Positions 55,878-64,000 of a stretch of 64,000 bases of DNA are shown here, piece after piece. Under the pieces are notes generated by a model. It made no database searches and was not told the origin of the DNA. It was given only the letters and a program-made list of their open reading frames with translations. The stretch is from Allohoeflea poritis (GTDB lineage: Bacteria; Pseudomonadota; Alphaproteobacteria; Rhizobiales; Rhizobiaceae), in contig NZ_JAPJZH010000008.1 of the NCBI RefSeq assembly GCF_027889715.1, positions 1 through 64,000 on the forward strand. The letters run 5' to 3'. Numbering within the stretch: position 1 is the stretch's first letter; every line of letters begins with the position of its first letter. The position numbers and the translations under genes were made by a program.

Positions 55878-56180
55878 TCAGCGCCCGCGCGCCTCCATGA
55901 CAGCCTGCACCAGGTCATCCGGGACCGGCGGCAGGGCTTCATCCGGTTCCTTGCCGCATTTTCTTGCAAGCTCGAGCGATGCCCGGTAGGCAGCCAGATA
56001 TTCGCGGCAATCCCGGCAGACCTTCAGATGCAATTCGAAAACGAATTTTTCCCGGGCGGACAGCGTGTCTTCCAGATAGGCAAGGATGAAGTCATCGAAC
56101 TCCTCGCAGGTGATCATCAACGGCATTTTGAACATCATGCCGCGGATCCGTCGCATCAGTGTCGGTGCGGCCTGTGTCAT
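55878..56180 (-). CDS. Zinc-finger (ZAS-type) anti-sigma factor
   Basis: 100 residues. ITCEEFDDFILAYLEDTLS followed by His51-x3-Cys55-x2-Cys58 (HLKVCRDC) is the ZAS zinc-binding fold of anti-sigma factors. There is no membrane helix, so it is soluble and may sense redox or zinc. Its ATG overlaps the stop of the ECF sigma gene by 4 bases, as usual for such pairs. Confidence 0.88.
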   Translation of the reverse strand: MTQAAPTLMRRIRGMMFKMPLMITCEEFDDFILAYLEDTLSAREKFVFELHLKVCRDCREYLAAYRASLELARKCGKEPDEALPPVPDDLVQAVMEARGR

Positions 56181-56794
56181 ACCGCTTGTCCTCTGATCAA
56201 GGGTTCCAACAAACGTTTCAGCGCGGCGCGGGCCCGGTGCAGACGCACCTTGACATTCGCCTCGCTGATTTCGAGAAGCTGCGCGACCTCCTGCGTCGAC
56301 AGCTCTTCAATGTCCCGCAGCACAAGAATGATGCGATAATTGTCGGGCAAAAGGTCGATTTTCCCGTTCACCTGCGCCTGGATATCCGATCGCATCAACA
56401 GCGTTTCCGGCGTCTCCATGGACATCCACCGGTCCTCGATCCGGCATCCATTATTGTCGAACACCGGCTGCAATTCGTCAATCGCCACGGTCTGCGACCG
56501 ATTGGTCTTGCGCAGCAGCATCAGGCTCTCATTGACGACGATCCGGTGCATCCAGGTCTTCAACGCGGACCGGCCGCCGAAGCCTCCGATATTGTCGAAA
56601 ACTTTGGCAAAGGCGTTCTGAACCGCATCCTCGGCATGATGCGCATCGCGGACGATCCGCATCGCAACCGCCAGCATCCAGCCGGCATGTTTGCGCACGA
56701 ACCGCTCGGCTGCGGCGGGATCGGCATTGGCGACCGCGGCGATTGCCTCGCCCTCGTCCGGCTCCGTCGCCGATGATCTGTCGCCCTTTTGCAC
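56177..56794 (-). CDS. ECF-family RNA polymerase sigma factor
   Basis: 205 residues from the GTG at 56794; a TTG at 56818 would add 8 residues. Region 2: DAHHAEDAVQNAFAKVFDNI and LKTWMHRIVVNESLMLLR; region 4: LLPDNYRIILVLRDIEELST and ISEANVKVRLHRARAALKR. It directs RNA polymerase to a small regulon and is held by the coupled anti-sigma factor. Its stimulus is not evident. Confidence 0.92.
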   Translation of the reverse strand: MQKGDRSSATEPDEGEAIAAVANADPAAAERFVRKHAGWMLAVAMRIVRDAHHAEDAVQNAFAKVFDNIGGFGGRSALKTWMHRIVVNESLMLLRKTNRSQTVAIDELQPVFDNNGCRIEDRWMSMETPETLLMRSDIQAQVNGKIDLLPDNYRIILVLRDIEELSTQEVAQLLEISEANVKVRLHRARAALKRLLEPLIRGQAV

Positions 56795-56915
56795 GCGTCG
56801 CCCCGTTTGCCGCCTCAAACTGTAATATTTCTAAATTCCGGCAATGCGCTGTAACCTTATTGAGGGCCCCTGCATCTGACAAGAAGCCGTCAAGGCAGCG
56901 CACCACGATGCAGGC

Positions 56916-58247
56916 ATGGTGAGCCGGCGGCGTCACGGCGGAAAACGCGATTGGGTTATGATGGGCTTACTGCTTCTTGCCATGTTCACGGTTGCCTACT
57001 CCATGGTGGCCAACCGGCTTTCCTCGACCGTGCTGACGGCACCGATGCTCTTTATCGGCTTCGGCGTCCTGCTGGCCGAGACCGGTCTCATGTCGCCGGA
57101 AGGCGCCGAAGAGGCGCTGCACCTCGTCGCCGAAGTGGCGCTGATCGTGCTCTTGTTCCTCGACGCGGCGCAGATCGATATCGCGACATTGCGCAGGCGC
57201 CATACATGGCCGGTGCGCATGCTGGTCATCGGGCTGCCACTGTCGCTCGTCCTCGGAACCCTGCTCGCCCTGCCCTTTCTGCCCGGATGGCCCATCGTCG
57301 CGGTTGCGCTGGTCGCGGCGATCCTCGCACCGACAGATGCGGCACTGGGTCAGGCCGTGGTGAGCAACCCGGCCGTGCCGGAACGCCCGCGGCGGGCGCT
57401 GACCGTGGAAAGCGGCCTCAATGACGGCCTCGCGCTGCCGGCCGTGCTGCTCTTTGCCAGCCTCGCCGCCGAGGCGATGGACCGGACCAACGCCGACTGG
57501 CTGGTTTTCGGCGCCAAGCAGATCCTGCTGGGGCCGCTGGCGGGCATCGTCACCGGCCTTCTCGGCGGCACGATCCTTTTGTGGGCCAAGCGCAAAAACG
57601 CAACGAGCGACACGTTCGAAGGCGTCGGCGCCATCGCGCTTGCCGGCGGCACCTATCTGGCCGCGACCCTGATTGACGGCAACGGCTTCATCGCCGCCTT
57701 TGTGGCCGGCCTGTGTTTCGGCAATGTGGTCAAGGGCCGCTGCAAGTTCGTCTATGAATTCACTGAAAGTGAAGGACAAATGCTCACTTGGGGCGCCTTC
57801 TTTCTGCTCGGGCTCGCCCTCGTTCCGGAAGCCGTACGCCATCTCGAACCGCCGGTGCTGGCGATCATTCTCCTGAGCCTGTTTGTGACCCGCCCGCTCG
57901 CCATATGGATTTCGCTGATCGGCACGGATGCATCGCCCGTAACCCGGCTGTTCTTCGGCTGGTTCGGACCGCGCGGACTTGCGACGGCGCTTTTTGCCCT
58001 GCTCGTCGTTGCTCAGGTCGATCATCCGATCGCCGAGCCGGTGCTGATGCTTGCCGTCAATGCCGTCTGGATCAGCGCGCTGCTGCACGGGTTCACCGCC
58101 GCACCGGGCGCGCGCTGGTATGCGGCCAAAGTCGGCGCGATGGGACCATGCGCCGAGATCGAGCCGCTCGACGCCTCCGCGAAACCGCTGAAAACCGGTG
58201 AATTCAAGCCTGACAATACAACAATCATGGGGAACCGAAATGAATAA
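56916..58247 (+). CDS. CPA1-type cation:proton antiporter
   Basis: 443 residues with about twelve membrane helices. LAPTDAALGQAVVSNPAVPE and LTVESGLNDGLALPAVLLF carry the acidic residues of the Na/H exchanger core. An ATG at 56958 is another possible start. The C-terminal 60 residues are soluble, without a TrkA domain; a TrkA-C-like tail is instead found on the membrane protein at the end of the operon. It overlaps the next gene by 8 bases, which ties it to the two Rieske fusions. Confidence 0.9.
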   Translation: MVSRRRHGGKRDWVMMGLLLLAMFTVAYSMVANRLSSTVLTAPMLFIGFGVLLAETGLMSPEGAEEALHLVAEVALIVLLFLDAAQIDIATLRRRHTWPVRMLVIGLPLSLVLGTLLALPFLPGWPIVAVALVAAILAPTDAALGQAVVSNPAVPERPRRALTVESGLNDGLALPAVLLFASLAAEAMDRTNADWLVFGAKQILLGPLAGIVTGLLGGTILLWAKRKNATSDTFEGVGAIALAGGTYLAATLIDGNGFIAAFVAGLCFGNVVKGRCKFVYEFTESEGQMLTWGAFFLLGLALVPEAVRHLEPPVLAIILLSLFVTRPLAIWISLIGTDASPVTRLFFGWFGPRGLATALFALLVVAQVDHPIAEPVLMLAVNAVWISALLHGFTAAPGARWYAAKVGAMGPCAEIEPLDASAKPLKTGEFKPDNTTIMGNRNE

Positions 58248-59850
58248 GCTGGCGATCATCGCCCTTGACGATCTGGAGGATCGCAAGCCCGAACACGCGC
58301 TGGTCGGCGAGGTCGATCTCGTCGTCGTGCGTTTCGACGACGAAGTCTCCGTTTTCTATGGTCGATGCCTGCACCGCGGCGCGCTCATGGCGGACGGCTT
58401 CGTGCGCGGCCGCAATCTCATCTGCGGCGTCCACTACTGGGACTACCGCCTCGATTCCGGCGTTTCAGCCTACGCCAACGAAGAGGTGCTGCCGAAATTC
58501 TCGAGCTGGATCGAGGACGGCCAGGTGCTTGTCGATGAAGACGAGATTCTCGCCTGGGCCAAGGACAACCCGCAGCCTTTCAACCGCAAGGCCTATCTCG
58601 GCGTCTACGCCGATACCGGCCACGGCACCGAGGAAGAGCCCTACAACCGGCTTATCCAGAATTACGCCCGGTCGGGTCTCAAGCGCACCGGCCATCACGG
58701 CCAGGTCGAGGCAATGGGCGTGCCGCGCACGCAGCTGCCCGACTGGGATGACATCCAGATCCTCACCGCCCAGCTCCATCGCATGCCGCTGCTCGACGAG
58801 GAGCCTGTCGGCACCGATGTGACGATCGGGCCGAACGCGCAAAAACCGCTGCAGCTGAAGATCCCGCTCTTTGTCTCGGATATGAGTTTCGGCGCGCTTT
58901 CGGAGCCCGCAAAAATTGCCCTTGCACGCGGCGCGGAACTGGCCGGAACCGGCATCTGCTCGGGCGAAGGCGGCATGCTGCCGGAGGAACAGGCCGAGAA
59001 TTCGCGCTATTTCTACGAACTCGCCTCCGGCCGTTTCGGCTTCGACTGGGACAAGCTGGATAATGTCCAGGCGTTCCATTTCAAGGGCGGACAGGGCGCC
59101 AAGACCGGCACCGGCGGCCACCTGCCCGGCCCCAAGGTCAAAGGCAAGATCGCCGAGGTGCGCGGCCTTCAGGAAGGCGAGGCAGCCATCTCCCCGCCGC
59201 GTTTTCCGGATTGGACCGAAGTGGGTCAGGTCAAGGATTTCGCCGACGAAGTGCGCGACCGCACCGGCGGCATACCGATCGGCTACAAGCTGTCGGCGCA
59301 GCATATAGAAAAGGACATCGACGCGGCGCTGGAGATCGATGTCGACTATATCATTCTCGACGGCCGCGGCGGCGGCACCGGCGCGGCGCCGATCATCTTC
59401 CGCGACAACATCTCCGTGCCGACCATACCGGCCCTCGCACGCGCCCGGCGGCATCTGGATTCGAGCGGACGCCCCGACATCACATTGGTCATAACCGGCG
59501 GGCTCAGGAAACCGGCCGATTTCATCAAGGCACTGGCCCTGGGCGCCGACGCCGTTGCGCTTTCCAACGCGCCCATGCAGGCGATCGGCTGTATTGCCAT
59601 GCGCGCATGCCACACCAACAACTGTCCGGTCGGTATCGCAACACAGAAACCGCATCTGGTCAGCCGGCTGGTTGTCGAGAAGTCCGCCGAACGGCTGACC
59701 AATTTCTTCGACGCATCGGTTGAGCTGATGCAGGTCATGGCCCGTGCCTGCGGACACGACCACCTGTCGAAATTCAACATTGAAGACCTGACGACCTGGA
59801 AGAAGGACATGGCCGACCTGTCCGGCGTTGCCTTTGGCGGCGTCGCTTAA
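58240..59850 (+). CDS. Rieske-ferredoxin / FMN glutamate-synthase-like fusion
   Basis: 536 residues from the ATG at 58240. Residues 1-105 form a Rieske domain: Cys43-x-His45 and Cys62-x2-His65 bind a [2Fe-2S] cluster. After about residue 120 comes the GltS FMN domain (FVSDMSFGALSEPAKIALARG, SPPRFPDW, ILDGRGGGTGAAP) with Cys451-x5-Cys457-x4-Cys462, the spacing of the [3Fe-4S] site in glutamate synthase. The amidotransferase domain is missing. It could make or oxidise an amino acid with electrons delivered through the Rieske cluster; the true substrate is unknown. It follows the antiporter with 8 bases overlap. Confidence 0.92.
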   Translation: MNKLAIIALDDLEDRKPEHALVGEVDLVVVRFDDEVSVFYGRCLHRGALMADGFVRGRNLICGVHYWDYRLDSGVSAYANEEVLPKFSSWIEDGQVLVDEDEILAWAKDNPQPFNRKAYLGVYADTGHGTEEEPYNRLIQNYARSGLKRTGHHGQVEAMGVPRTQLPDWDDIQILTAQLHRMPLLDEEPVGTDVTIGPNAQKPLQLKIPLFVSDMSFGALSEPAKIALARGAELAGTGICSGEGGMLPEEQAENSRYFYELASGRFGFDWDKLDNVQAFHFKGGQGAKTGTGGHLPGPKVKGKIAEVRGLQEGEAAISPPRFPDWTEVGQVKDFADEVRDRTGGIPIGYKLSAQHIEKDIDAALEIDVDYIILDGRGGGTGAAPIIFRDNISVPTIPALARARRHLDSSGRPDITLVITGGLRKPADFIKALALGADAVALSNAPMQAIGCIAMRACHTNNCPVGIATQKPHLVSRLVVEKSAERLTNFFDASVELMQVMARACGHDHLSKFNIEDLTTWKKDMADLSGVAFGGVA

Positions 59851-59872
59851 ATCCGAAGGAATGGAGCCACAC

Positions 59873-61849
59873 ATGACAGCCGACAATCTGGAATGGATTA
59901 ACGTTGGACACGCCGACGATCTGCCCGAGGGGCGGGTCAAGACCGTGACGGCACGCGATGTATCGCTGTGCCTTTCGCATTTCGAGGGGCAATGGGCGGC
60001 CATGGACAATCACTGTCCGCACCAGGGCGGCCCGCTCGGCGAGGGATCCATTGAACAAGGTGTCGAAGGCAAGTGCTGGATCCGCTGCCCCTGGCACGGC
60101 TGGGATTTCGATCCGCTGACCGGCGCGCCGCCCGGCGGCCACAAGGATACGGGACAGAAAACCTATCCGGTCGAAATCCGCGACGACGAGGTCTTCATCG
60201 GCCTGGAGCCTGAGCCGGAGCGCGCGCGCACCGTCACCGATGCAATGACCGAGACCATGATCAATTGGGGCGTGCGCAGCGTCTTCGGCATGGTCGGCCA
60301 TTCCAATCTAGGGCTTGCCGACTCCATCCGTATCGCGGCCCGCGACGGCAAGCTGAGCTATTACGGCATTCGCCACGAGGGCGCCGCCGCCTTCGCCGCC
60401 TCCGCCTACGGAAAGCTCACCGGGCAGCCGGCCGCCTGTATCACCATCGCAGGCCCCGGTGCGACCAACCTGCTGACCGGCATGTGGGACGCCAAGGTCG
60501 ACCGGGCGCCGGTGCTGGCGCTGACCGGCCAGGTGCAGACCCAGGTCTTCGGACCCGGCGCCTTCCAGGACATCGACCTGAAATCCGCATTCGACGCCGT
60601 TTCCCGGTTTTCGCAGACGGTGCTTTCCACCTCAAAGCACACGGAGCTCATGTCGCTTGCCTGCAAGAACGCCATTGTTGAGCGCGACGTCGCCCATCTG
60701 ATCTTCCCGGACGATGTGCAAACCCAGCCCAGCAAGGCCAAGCCGCGCGGCCCCAAGGGCCGTCTCGGCGACACGGCGATCAAGCCGTCGGACGCCGATG
60801 TCGAGGCTGCGGCGGAAATGATCAATGCCGCGAAGCGGCCGATCATCATCATGGGGCACGGTGCCGTGCACGTCCGCGACGCGGTGATCGCCTTCGCCGA
60901 GAAACTCGGCGCACCGGTGCTGACAACGTTCAAGGCAAAGGGTCTGATCGCCGACACGCACCCCAACGCCGCCGGCGTCCTCGGCCGTTCCGGCACGCCG
61001 ATCGCAAGCTGGTTCGTCGCCACCTCCGACCTCGTGATCACGCTCGGAACCTCGTTCTCAAACCACACCGGCATCGAGCCGTCCAAACGCATCATCCAGG
61101 TGGATTTCGAACGCATGCAGCTCGGCAAGTTTCACCGGGTCACCCTGCCCGTGTGGGGCGAGATCGGTGAATTCTGCAAGATCATGGCGCAGACGGCCGA
61201 AAAGTCGCCGGATGCGGAAGACCAGATTTCCGAACTCGCGGAGCGGTGGGCGATCTGGCGAACCGAGAAGCAGTCGCGTCTCGCCGAAGAGAAAGACAAC
61301 GGCATCCATTCCTTCGCGGTGTTCGATGCGCTGACGAAATTGTGCCCGGCGGACGCGATTATCGCCGTCGATGTCGGCAACAATACCTATTCCTTCGGGC
61401 GCTATTTCGAAACCTGCGGCCAGCGGGTGCTGATGTCCGGCTATCTTGGTTCCATAGGCTTCGGTCTGCCCGCCGCCATCGGGGCATGGGCCGCCACGCG
61501 GGACCTCGAAGCGTTCGAGGGCCGCAAGGTGGTCTCGATTTCCGGTGACGGCGGCTTCGGCCAATATGCGATGGAATTCACCACCGCGGTCAAATACGGG
61601 ATGGACATCACCCATATCCTTCTCAACAACGGTCAGCTCGGCAAGATTTCCAAGGAACAACAGGCCGGACACTGGCCGGTCTGGGAAACGCAGCTCAGCA
61701 ACCCGTCCTTTGCCGCCTTTGCCCGCCTGTGCGGCGGCCACGGCACGCGCGTCACCGAAACCGAGGCCCTTGAAAAGGCCATATCCGAGGCGCTTGATCA
61801 CAAGGGCCCATCGCTTGTCGAGATCATGACCGATCCCGAACTGGTCTGA
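59873..61849 (+). CDS. Rieske-ferredoxin / thiamine-diphosphate enzyme fusion
   Basis: 658 residues from the ATG at 59873 (GGAG 6 bases upstream). Residues 1-115 are a Rieske domain with Cys48-x-His50 and Cys72-x2-His75. The rest is a full acetolactate-synthase/pyruvate-oxidase-type enzyme: GIRHEGAAAFAASAYGKL with the proton-relay Glu, TIAGPGATNLLTGMWDAK, and the thiamine diphosphate motif starting GDGGFGQYAME. A 2-oxoacid or acyloin substrate is likely. The Rieske cluster may accept electrons, as in pyruvate oxidases. It lies 22 bases after the Rieske-GltS gene. Confidence 0.92.
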   Translation: MTADNLEWINVGHADDLPEGRVKTVTARDVSLCLSHFEGQWAAMDNHCPHQGGPLGEGSIEQGVEGKCWIRCPWHGWDFDPLTGAPPGGHKDTGQKTYPVEIRDDEVFIGLEPEPERARTVTDAMTETMINWGVRSVFGMVGHSNLGLADSIRIAARDGKLSYYGIRHEGAAAFAASAYGKLTGQPAACITIAGPGATNLLTGMWDAKVDRAPVLALTGQVQTQVFGPGAFQDIDLKSAFDAVSRFSQTVLSTSKHTELMSLACKNAIVERDVAHLIFPDDVQTQPSKAKPRGPKGRLGDTAIKPSDADVEAAAEMINAAKRPIIIMGHGAVHVRDAVIAFAEKLGAPVLTTFKAKGLIADTHPNAAGVLGRSGTPIASWFVATSDLVITLGTSFSNHTGIEPSKRIIQVDFERMQLGKFHRVTLPVWGEIGEFCKIMAQTAEKSPDAEDQISELAERWAIWRTEKQSRLAEEKDNGIHSFAVFDALTKLCPADAIIAVDVGNNTYSFGRYFETCGQRVLMSGYLGSIGFGLPAAIGAWAATRDLEAFEGRKVVSISGDGGFGQYAMEFTTAVKYGMDITHILLNNGQLGKISKEQQAGHWPVWETQLSNPSFAAFARLCGGHGTRVTETEALEKAISEALDHKGPSLVEIMTDPELV

Positions 61850-61886
61850 TTGCCTGTAAAGAATTCGATATTTTGGGAGATATTCA

Positions 61887-62741
61887 ATGACTTCAGCCGC
61901 CGATCTGCTTGCCCAGACCGCACCCGGCTCGATCGCCGACGCCCGCAGCGTGGCCCACAATGCTGCCCAGATCGCCGCTCTTGCGGCACTGGCCAATCTG
62001 AAAGCCAGGCCCGATTACAGCCATACCGCCTTGCACTGGAATGCGGCGAGCGGCGCCTTCGAGACGAATCCGATTCCCAGTTCCGACGGTCCGATCATCA
62101 TCCGCATTCCGCTGTCGCCGCTTTCCATGCGGCTGGTCCGGGGCGGCGAGGCAATCGATACGCTTGAGCTGGATGACGTATCGGAGGCGGCCTGCATTGC
62201 CTGGCTCGATGAGGGCCTGACGGAACATGGGCTGAATGCGGCTTCCAGCGTCAAACATCCCTTCAAGCTTCCGAAGGATGTCGTTGCCGTAACCGAATTC
62301 AGGACCGACGGACTTGAAGCCGGCCTGCTGGCACTCGGCCGCTGGTACGATCTCGCCAGCCGGCAATTGCTGAACTTCGCATCGAAGCATGCCGCCATTA
62401 TACCCGGACCGAGCCCTGTCTATTGCTGGCCGCATCATTTCGATATCGCCACCTATGTCGGTCTCGACGAGGAGGGTGGAGAGAACGCCCGCGGCATCGG
62501 TGTCGGCATGTCGCCCGGCGACAAGGCCTATGGCGAGCCCTATTTCTACATCAATCCCTGGCCGCACCTTGCGACCGGAAACCTGCCGCCTCTACCTGCT
62601 CCGGGACACTGGCATAAGGAAGGTTTCGTCGGCGCTGTCGCGACAGCCACCGAAATCCTGACCCTGGACGACAAGGAAGGCGGCCTCGCCGATTTCATCG
62701 AAGGGGCATTCGCGCTCGGCCGCGAGAAGCTGGGGGCCTGA
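61887..62741 (+). CDS. Unrecognised protein of the Rieske-fusion operon
   Basis: 284 residues, soluble-looking. The C-terminal half has striking, conserved-looking pieces: SPVYCWPHHFDIATYVGL, GIGVGMSPGDKAYGEPYFYI and NPWPHLATGNLPPLPAPGHW, with paired His (WPHHFD, GHWHKEG) that could bind metal. The N-terminal half is helical and Ala-rich. It starts 37 bases after the thiamine enzyme and ends 4 bases before the next gene. I do not recognise the family; given the context it may be a third enzyme of the pathway. Confidence 0.8.
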   Translation: MTSAADLLAQTAPGSIADARSVAHNAAQIAALAALANLKARPDYSHTALHWNAASGAFETNPIPSSDGPIIIRIPLSPLSMRLVRGGEAIDTLELDDVSEAACIAWLDEGLTEHGLNAASSVKHPFKLPKDVVAVTEFRTDGLEAGLLALGRWYDLASRQLLNFASKHAAIIPGPSPVYCWPHHFDIATYVGLDEEGGENARGIGVGMSPGDKAYGEPYFYINPWPHLATGNLPPLPAPGHWHKEGFVGAVATATEILTLDDKEGGLADFIEGAFALGREKLGA

Positions 62742-62745
62742 TCTT

Positions 62746-63429
62746 ATGGCGGCAGCGCTCACGATCGCCATCCTTCTGGCCCTGTCCGTCTCGCTGGTCA
62801 GGATCGGCGCCGTCGCCATGCGGCTGACGGGATTGCCGGAAAACATCGCCCGATTCCAGTGCGTCTCGGCCCTGACCGGAACCGGTTTCACCACCCATGA
62901 AGCCGAGATGATCGCCAATTATCCGATCCGCCGCCGCATCGTGGTCGTGCTGATGGTGCTCGGCAATCTCGGACTGATTTCCATCGCCTCGACCTTCATC
63001 GTCGCCTTTGTCCGGACCGGGCCGGATACCCAGCATATCGCGATACAGGCGGCGATCCTGGCCGCCACCATCGCAGTGACCTTCCTGGTGCTGAGCAACA
63101 AGAGCCTCGACCGCGGCATGTGCGCGCTGATCGGCCATGTCCTGTTGCGCACCACATCGCTCGGCAAGGACGGCTATCACCGCATCTTGCAGATCGGCAA
63201 GGATCTCAGCATTGCCGAGCACGAATATTTCGGACCCGAGATACCGACCGACCGGCTGGATCTGGAAGGCGAGACCCTGCTCGCCATCCGCCCCGCCGGC
63301 TCCTGGCAGACGACGGCCGCCGCCGATGTGAAGACCCTCAGGCCGGGCGATACGCTGATCCTGTGCGGAGACGAGGCGGCGCATAAAGCGCTTGCACGAC
63401 ATTTCGGCAGGGACGAGGTCCGGAATTAG
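62746..63429 (+). CDS. Membrane protein with TrkA-C-like cytoplasmic domain
   Basis: 227 residues. Three or so N-terminal membrane helices (ALTIAILLALSVSLVRIG, VVVLMVLGNLGLISIASTFI and the one after) include a segment FQCVSALTGTGFTTHEAEMI that recalls a pore-like loop of potassium transport proteins. Residues about 150-225 (EIPTDRLDLEGETLLAIRPA, then LRPGDTLILCGDEAAHKALA) resemble TrkA-C/RCK_C domains. It may gate or help the antiporter at the operon start. It is the last gene of the operon. Confidence 0.75.
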   Translation: MAAALTIAILLALSVSLVRIGAVAMRLTGLPENIARFQCVSALTGTGFTTHEAEMIANYPIRRRIVVVLMVLGNLGLISIASTFIVAFVRTGPDTQHIAIQAAILAATIAVTFLVLSNKSLDRGMCALIGHVLLRTTSLGKDGYHRILQIGKDLSIAEHEYFGPEIPTDRLDLEGETLLAIRPAGSWQTTAAADVKTLRPGDTLILCGDEAAHKALARHFGRDEVRN

Positions 63430-63442
63430 AGCGAAATTAGGC

Positions 63443-63934
63443 TTAGGGCTTGCCTTGGGTCCAGGTCACATTCTGTCCGTAAAGCGGCACTGTGGACAGC
63501 GACATCTTCGCCGATCCATCCTGGACCTGGCGCGAATGCGACAGATAAATCAGTGTGTCGTTCTTCTTGTCGTAGATACGCTTGATGACCAGTTTCTTCC
63601 AGACGATCGAGCGCCTCTGCTTGAAGATTTCCTCGCCGCCCTCGTCCAGCTCGATATCGCCGATAACCACCGGACCGGTCTGGCGGCAGGCGATTGAGGA
63701 GTTGGACGGGTCCTCGAACCAGTTGCCCTTCTGCAGCCGGTCGATCACCCCGCGCTCGAAATAGGCGACATGGCAGGTCACGCCCAAAACCCCCGGATCC
63801 TCGACCGCATCGACGATAATGTCGTTGCCAAGCCAGTCGACGCCGACTTCCCCGACCTGTTCGGCCTGGGCCGGGTTCATTCCAGCTGCCGCCAGTGCAA
63901 AAACCGCACTTGCGCATAAAATCAGATACCGCAT
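63443..63934 (-). CDS. creA: CreA-family periplasmic protein
   Basis: 163 residues from the ATG at 63934 (GGGAG 6 bases upstream). A signal peptide (RYLILCASAVFALAAAGM, ending AQAEQ) is followed by VGVDWLGNDIIVDAVEDPGV, GVTCHVAYFERG and SNSSIACRQTGPV, all typical of CreA. Two Cys suggest a disulfide. Role unknown. It is convergent with the Rieske-fusion operon, 13 bases from its stop. Confidence 0.93.
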   Translation of the reverse strand: MRYLILCASAVFALAAAGMNPAQAEQVGEVGVDWLGNDIIVDAVEDPGVLGVTCHVAYFERGVIDRLQKGNWFEDPSNSSIACRQTGPVVIGDIELDEGGEEIFKQRRSIVWKKLVIKRIYDKKNDTLIYLSHSRQVQDGSAKMSLSTVPLYGQNVTWTQGKP

Positions 63935-64000
63935 TGAAAACTCCCGTTCTTCCTTTGGCCTCATATAGGAACCCATGGAACCCGATTGCGAGGTCTAGCG

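Follow-up and report, generated by a model that had tools for sequence, protein, structure and literature searches.

Gene layout and the ECF promoter

The DNA described here is the stretch of 64,000 nt at the start of contig NZ_JAPJZH010000008.1 of Allohoeflea poritis (the window, which is locus L068 in the comparisons below). It carries an operon of five open reading frames (ORFs) on the plus strand, in the order antiporter, RGlt, RTPP, DUF5996 protein and TrkA-C-like membrane protein. RGlt is a fusion of a Rieske domain with a domain of the glutamate synthase (GltS) type, and RTPP is a fusion of a Rieske domain with a thiamine diphosphate (TPP) enzyme. An earlier sequence-only reading had described five same-direction genes spaced from an 8-bp overlap to a 37-bp gap, which is what is present, the junctions being -8, 22, 37 and 4 bp. 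It had overlooked a divergent pair of genes for an extracytoplasmic function (ECF) sigma factor and its anti-sigma factor, together with the promoter. The two enzymes and these controlling elements lie as follows:

58240..59850, plus strand: RGlt, 536 aa, Rieske [2Fe-2S] domain (PF00355) and GltS-type flavin mononucleotide (FMN)/[3Fe-4S] synthase domain (PF01645)
59873..61849, plus strand: RTPP, 658 aa, Rieske [2Fe-2S] domain (PF00355) and pyruvate-oxidase-like TPP enzyme (PF02776, PF00205, PF02775)
56850..56876, plus strand: ECF-type promoter TGTAACC-N15-GCATC, the sole match in the window with at most one mismatch
56177..56818, minus strand: ECF sigma factor, divergent from the operon (Sigma70_r2 53 bits, r4_2 58 bits)
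55878..56180, minus strand: anti-sigma factor, 100 aa, zinc-finger type (zf-HC2; H-x3-C-x2-C), Pfam zf-HC2 37 bits when scanned minus its first residue

The sigma factor scores 100.5 bits against TIGR02937 (sigma70-ECF, cut-off 42.9). The C...HxxxCxxC pattern of the anti-sigma factor is kept in 12 of 12 aligned rows, of which one is the window and two come from one genome. Shuffled versions of the window average 0.15 matches to the promoter motif with up to one mismatch allowed, and the motif faces the operon in all 10 ECF-to-antiporter intergenic regions compared.

The wider comparison covered 126 loci totalling 2,083,199 bases, in which L055 and L142 are one genome and some taxon labels of metagenome-assembled genomes (MAGs) are possibly mis-binned. 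Genes in the fetched loci were called with a simple codon-usage ORF caller, which places some starts and small genes wrongly. With spacers of 14 to 16 allowed, the motif matched 13 times, every time with a spacer of 15, and all 13 matches are intergenic by our own ORF calls and lie upstream of the antiporter, RGlt or RTPP. Thirteen loci are ECF-linked, meaning that tblastn places an ECF gene near the enzymes. The exact motif occurs in 12 of these, and in the thirteenth, L056, a copy with one mismatch precedes the RCK_C and RGlt genes; the exact motif occurs in 0 of the 102 other loci carrying RGlt or RTPP. These counts follow the tblastn matches, as the ORF caller missed the ECF gene of L056 and the script table accordingly gives 12/12 and 0/103; the ECF gene of L123, at 26% identity, is excluded by a 30% cut. 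In L158, a Kordiimonadaceae MAG, RGlt and RTPP occupy separate divergent operons and the motif stands before each.

A wider regulon was sought in the window's own genome, where 14 sites with at most one mismatch (one of them exact) stand against 20 in a reversed-pattern control, giving no excess. Across 12 genomes the exact motif occurs at 23 sites versus eight in the reversed control. Twelve of the 23 are cluster sites: G680 has two of them and ten further genomes one each, while in G079 the sole exact site falls outside the cluster. Because the remaining 11 sites are at about control level, the regulon looks confined to this gene set, with the reservation that weak sites could be missed.

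Nitratireductor sp. XY-223 (L103) has the same operon order, with identities to the window proteins of 92% (antiporter), 95% (RGlt), 96% (RTPP), 88% (DUF5996) and 85% (RCK_C), and so do L041 and L107, where the identities are lower. The complete set of five genes and ECF pair was found in the window and these three loci. L125 has it too, but with broken frames and an uncalled anti-sigma gene; at L125:10001-15256, RGlt and the RCK_C gene each look split across two reading frames in the assembly. Directly downstream of the window operon is a small convergent gene (63443-63976, minus strand), a putative CreA-like gene. Among the 80 named RGlt loci described below it has a match in L103 alone.

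Two enzymes with Rieske domains

RGlt starts at ATG 58240 and scores 305 bits against Glu_synthase (PF01645) and 41 bits against Rieske (PF00355). RTPP starts at ATG 59873, with 106, 122 and 118 bits for its N, M and C TPP-enzyme domains and 62 bits for Rieske. Their best Protein Data Bank (PDB) matches are GltS large subunits and E. coli PoxB (3EYA), respectively. Both Rieske domains present two Cys and two His ligands as C-x-H ... C-x2-H, namely C43/H45/C62/H65 in RGlt (codons beginning at 58366, 58372, 58423 and 58432) and C48/H50/C72/H75 in RTPP. The claim that these ligands are intact extends to relatives, as they are kept in 95/95 distinct RGlt and 44/44 distinct RTPP sequences, window included, in sets chosen at identities of at least 60% (RGlt) or at least 50% (RTPP) and query coverage of 95% or 90%, which favours Rieske-retaining proteins. 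C451, C457 and C462 of RGlt are also present in 95/95 sequences; these C-x5-C-x4-C cysteines correspond to those of the GltS [3Fe-4S] site. In RTPP the motif LGKI(S/T)KEQ is conserved. A Rieske oxygenase was rejected for both enzymes, since GltS or TPP domains and no oxygenase domain follow the Rieske.

No Pfam match to a PurF-type glutaminase domain was found at E ≤ 1 in the 536 aa of RGlt, and an ordinary glutamate synthase was rejected on this absence. Lacking that domain, RGlt likely uses free ammonia or an amine, or runs the reverse reaction. An RTPP-like gene was not found in the 13–14 kb fetched for each of three of the four GltS paralogues of the window genome.

The sequence-only reading had placed the same electron module on both enzymes. 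This stands insofar as both are Rieske domains, but they are not closely related. Mean identity over 200 random pairs each is 23% between RGlt and RTPP, 22% between RGlt and a membrane Rieske protein described below, and 34% between RTPP and that protein. The RGlt Rieske is thus the outlier of the three, RTPP and the membrane protein having the more similar pair, and a recent duplication between RGlt and RTPP was rejected at 23% identity.

The attached iron-sulphur module also varies. A GltS-domain tree, rooted on the second GltS-like protein of L160, places 99 Rieske rows and two truncated rows in one clade (support 0.94), with a sister clade of eight (support 0.79) carrying a CDGSH [2Fe-2S] domain in place of the Rieske. 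As different modules occur on the same kinds of enzyme, an electron-transfer role is argued for.

Among the variants, L101:8420-11029 encodes an RTPP of ~870 aa with two CDGSH stretches and Fer4_19 ahead of the Rieske and TPP domains (Pfam on L101), and L102:9025-11634 a variant of the same length. At L064:7802-12018 a CDGSH-type GltS gene lies with two GST-like genes and one hemerythrin-like gene (Pfam on L064). Related genes, of clusters c9/c10, occur in L040, L060 and L063, in L040 near the Rieske-type gene.

Linkage, distribution and accompanying genes

A third Rieske fusion, an MsrQ-like membrane protein with a C-terminal Rieske domain, recurs beside RGlt and RTPP. Its match to MsrQ is weak (30.5 bits for the L093 protein, cut-off 130). 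It stands near RTPP with no RGlt nearby in L093, L095 and L100, and beside RGlt in L054, whose genome (G044) has no RTPP match at E ≤ 1e-120. All three pairings of RGlt, RTPP and the membrane Rieske protein occur as neighbours. Usually beside the membrane protein is c6, an unnamed neighbour (L049:11889-12647 and homologues) with an N-terminal hydrophobic stretch and the motif KC..G.M.PG.G..HK.CA.LC; the members scanned gave no Pfam or NCBIfam match. In L051 and L052 the gene directly upstream of RGlt has cytochrome-c-like matches (L051 scanned).

Genome content links the two enzymes as well. In an order-level sample of 297 genomes, searched at E ≤ 1e-90 for RGlt and E ≤ 1e-120 for RTPP, RGlt-type genes occur in 34, RTPP in 22 and both in 15. 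Twenty-four of the 34 align from the Rieske end and eight have a CDGSH N-terminus; two were left unclassed, G002 being cut by a contig end and G047 having an internal stop. The co-occurrence search suggested by the sequence-only reading, with the window excluded, found RGlt in 14 of the 21 RTPP genomes versus 33 of 296 overall (Fisher p 1.8e-10). By genus, counting the Rieske type only, RGlt occurs in 17, RTPP in 18 and both in 12 of 122 (p 6.8e-9), and a class-level sample of 384 genomes (E ≤ 1e-120 and 1e-150) gives 13, 14 and seven (p 2.3e-8); these Fisher values are inflated by kinship among genomes. The 12 same-family genomes listed have neither gene at E ≤ 1e-90 (RGlt) and 1e-120 (RTPP).

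Neighbours of RGlt were counted in 80 named loci, the best 80 of at least 576 relatives in a scan of a genome collection, using tblastn with score cuts for eight partner genes over 7 kb either way. RTPP is found in 30, the membrane Rieske protein in 28, c6 in 27, the antiporter in 23, DUF5996 in 10, ECF in five, and anti-sigma and the RCK_C protein in four each. In the 24 order-sample loci (L035-L058) the antiporter occurs in 17, RTPP in nine, ECF and anti-sigma in seven each, the membrane Rieske protein and c6 in six each, RCK_C in five and DUF5996 in four, with no partner in four. A Nitrospirales MAG (L157) has the membrane Rieske protein, RGlt, DUF5996 and RTPP all on one strand, so the association extends beyond the Alphaproteobacteria.

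Several of these loci hold further genes. The Nitrospirales cluster (L157:3921-11979 and L159) includes a glutathione-synthetase-type ATP-grasp gene and, by eye, a carbonic-anhydrase-like gene, with an EamA transporter in L157. At L160:4445-9197, in a Nitrosomonas-labelled MAG, RGlt adjoins a second, Rieske-free GltS-like gene and a TPP gene (27% to RTPP), so that GltS-type and TPP enzymes are paired again, and an aldehyde-dehydrogenase-like gene was seen by eye. A 5.3-kb contig from a Campylobacteraceae-labelled, possibly mis-binned MAG (L140) carries RGlt and RTPP at 78% and 68% identity to those of the window. A sodium:alanine-type symporter lies near RGlt and the RCK_C gene at L042:12921-14366 and L044:13386-14831 in genus g44 (Pfam on L042). 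Linkage to amino-acid transporters is weak overall (AGCS-type in 4/126 loci, two sequence types), and an AGCS symporter link was dropped.

The three remaining genes of the window operon are:

56958..58247, plus strand: Na+/H+ exchanger-family antiporter (ORF opens at 56916), PF00999 131 bits
61887..62741, plus strand: DUF5996 protein of 284 aa, CWPH-F-D and SPGD segments conserved, PF19459 25.0 bits
62746..63429, plus strand: membrane protein with a TrkH-like pore-loop segment and a probable C-terminal RCK_C (TrkA-C) domain, from weak TrkH, Foldseek and profile matches

The antiporter named in the sequence-only reading is present, with its start moved from 56916 to probably ATG 56958 or 56961, as judged from starts in several relatives. 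It scores 132 bits against the NCBIfam potassium/proton antiporter NF003716, under the cut-off of 355. The DUF5996 match is borderline, at exactly the cut-off of 25. Its CWPH, FD and SPGD residues are invariant in an alignment of 14, which suggests a ligand or metal site. The AlphaFold model has a predicted local distance difference test score (pLDDT) of 93.5 and gave no PDB fold match at E ≤ 0.001; profile searching against PDB sequences yielded two matches, at E 0.88 and 0.97.

The last protein matches no Pfam family above cut-off, and its TrkH match is weak (13.8 bits, cut-off 331). A profile search matches the KtrA RCK_C domain (E 0.015), and Foldseek finds 2bko (E 8.1e-4, unknown function) and 1vct (E 1.6e-3, potassium channel related), followed by MthK, KtrA and TrkA, at low TM-scores to the query (0.27 to 0.31) from a model of medium confidence (pLDDT 73.8). 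A potassium link is likely, fitting K+ handling together with the antiporter. The suggestion of the sequence-only reading that these two proteins may supply ion coupling or drive uptake is thus supported in part, ion coupling being a possible role.

Proposed electron exchange, rival explanations and known systems

The five genes and their controller very probably form one regulated unit, because they share a neighbourhood, co-occur in genome content and carry an ECF promoter, which stands before both enzyme genes even where these lie in separate operons. On this point the sequence-only reading holds. As one ECF-type promoter precedes all five genes, the anti-sigma factor would, on freeing the sigma factor, allow their joint expression from 56850-56876.

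We propose, at a probability of roughly 0.5, that the unit is an ECF-controlled, Rieske-linked electron-exchange module, with 2-oxo acid oxidation at RTPP and FMN-based amino-acid chemistry at RGlt. RTPP, with thiamine diphosphate and probably a flavin, would oxidatively decarboxylate a 2-oxo acid, its electrons leaving singly via its own low-potential Rieske instead of passing to quinone via a PoxB-type tail. RGlt, with its Rieske, [3Fe-4S] and FMN centres, would carry out reversible chemistry between an amino acid and a 2-oxo acid with free ammonia or an amine. The pairing of 2-oxoacid decarboxylation with amination, which the sequence-only reading gave as an example, stays a hypothesis. Electrons would pass between the two enzymes by way of the Rieske domains, either without an intermediary or with a one-electron carrier that both use; in many relatives the MsrQ-like membrane protein, with its third Rieske domain, may fill this place. 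Under the same stress, K+/H+ balance would be adjusted by the antiporter and the RCK_C protein. A single electron network joining these proteins through the Rieske domains is slightly favoured, whereas any particular direction at RGlt is doubtful.

Several observations weigh against the proposed module. K591 of RTPP stands at a PoxB Phe position in all 44 sequences, for which reason pyruvate may not be the substrate. RTPP scores 396.5 bits against NF006377 (pyruvate oxidase), whose equivalog cut-off is 742, and RGlt falls well below the NCBIfam equivalog cut-off for glutamate synthase. Outside Rieske domains nothing in the window genome matches the membrane Rieske protein, and hence no shared carrier is identified there. 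In the order sample, seven of the 22 RTPP genomes lack an RGlt match at E ≤ 1e-90. The genes stay together in L041, L103 and L107, which have the full set, but 33 of the 80 named RGlt loci have none of the eight partners within 7 kb, which partly amounts to the scattering in relatives that the sequence-only reading had named as a refutation. Thirteen of these 33 are labelled Alphaproteobacteria, 18 belong to other groups and two are labelled only 'Proteobacteria'; one of them, L143, does have a fragment of the membrane Rieske protein at a contig end, scoring under the cut. Of the 50 named loci whose flanks both reach at least 6 kb, 31 have a partner and 19 have none.

The exchange could take a more specific form, in which RTPP oxidises a pyruvate-like acid and electrons pass from Rieske to Rieske and on to the [3Fe-4S] and FMN of RGlt, driving amination, and the amino acid made, glutamate or a different one, serves as counter-ion for the K+ that the antiporter and RCK_C protein move. 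The pyruvate couple lies below the GltS potentials. PMC8097209 gives -190 mV for [3Fe-4S] and -270 mV for FMN in GltS with 2-oxoglutarate bound. RGlt and RTPP are moreover the only Rieske partners in the window operon, and its last gene has a probable K+-type RCK_C domain. Pyruvate-powered amination is nevertheless improbable, given that RTPP is not the only partner of RGlt, as the G044 locus shows, and that the GltS segment HHDIYSIED is FPDWTEV-like in RGlt. Alternatively both enzymes could be dehydrogenases, RGlt converting an amino acid to a 2-oxo acid and ammonia and RTPP a 2-oxo acid to an acid and CO2, with a common membrane or soluble acceptor. The membrane Rieske protein close to RGlt in 28 of 80 loci and near RTPP in L093, L095 and L100, together with the cytochrome-c-like gene upstream of RGlt in L051 and L052, would suit such an arrangement. 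It is less easily squared with the window genome, where the membrane protein is unmatched, or with the lack of a consistent amino-acid transporter link, and appears fairly unlikely.

In two further explanations no electrons pass between the enzymes. One takes the Rieske and CDGSH domains for stabilisers or redox sensors, turning each enzyme on or off under oxidative stress, in keeping with control by an ECF and zinc-finger anti-sigma pair and with the sister clade having another kind of [2Fe-2S] domain, beside GST- and hemerythrin-like genes in L064. The RTPP variant with CDGSH, Fer4_19 and Rieske in a row looks more like a wire, which leaves this explanation a slim chance. Slimmer again is the prospect that the genes are neighbours through common regulation only, with the enzymes in separate pathways; the partnerless loci speak for it, but all three Rieske-protein pairings are adjacent, and all three proteins are encoded on one strand in L157.

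The boldest reading, which is less likely than not, is an undescribed pathway, in which unrelated flavin, TPP and membrane-haem enzymes, each with its own [2Fe-2S], would share electrons from 2-oxo acid decarboxylation with amino-acid chemistry and transmembrane delivery in one ECF regulon. The earlier statement that no such pathway is described agrees with our literature search, which brought up nothing on Rieske-GltS, Rieske-POX or the function of DUF5996, most subscription journals being beyond its reach. The usual redox partners of GltS- and POX-type enzymes are separate ferredoxins, NAD(P)H-linked subunits, quinones or oxygen. If the module is real, it would be a new way to share metabolic electrons, with a Rieske on each enzyme, one ECF switch and a third fusion in the membrane, and would provide widespread genes, now named by domain alone, with a function open to testing.

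Among known regulators the nearest comparison is with the ECF16 sigma factors, which in PMC8315932 and PMC3420878 comprise Brucella BcrS, Caulobacter SigF and Bradyrhizobium EcfF; BcrS activates an adjacent operon and the group is linked to oxidative stress. The window sigma factor is likewise an alphaproteobacterial ECF factor with a TGTAAC-type -35 box. Its -10 element is GCATC, whereas ECF16 has CGAA, and its anti-sigma factor is the 100-aa zinc-finger type, whereas that of ECF16, as defined in those two papers, is the membrane NrsF/OsrA type. An ECF16/SigF regulon was rejected on both differences. CDGSH-Glu_synthase fusions have been reported already (PMC5859297, Sci Rep 2018), and RGlt resembles them in joining a GltS-like domain to a [2Fe-2S] domain. 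Unlike the RGlt set, the nine CDGSH-type loci (L059-L067, some on short contigs) lack ECF, antiporter and exact promoter.

MsrQ is the haem subunit of methionine sulfoxide reductase; the linked membrane protein matches it weakly and, unlike it, bears its own C-terminal Rieske. Like GltB (PDB 1EA0, 7MFM) and ferredoxin-dependent GltS (1LLW), RGlt has a synthase domain with C-x5-C-x4-C, and its Lys288 and Arg308 align with a GltS Lys and Arg. We take the Lys, Gln and Arg of GltS to be 2-oxoglutarate-site residues; RGlt differs in having His294 at the Gln position in 95/95 distinct sequences, in the FPDWTEV-like segment and in its N-terminal Rieske domain. RTPP shares three TPP-enzyme domains with PoxB (3EYA/3EY9) and the POX/ALS family, and its catalytic Glu169 and Phe231-Gln232 are conserved. 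It differs in its N-terminal Rieske domain and in an alignment that stops at PoxB 528 of 572, that is, without the C-terminal tail. This tail has a membrane role in PoxB, and in RTPP the Rieske domain would replace membrane contact as the electron outlet.

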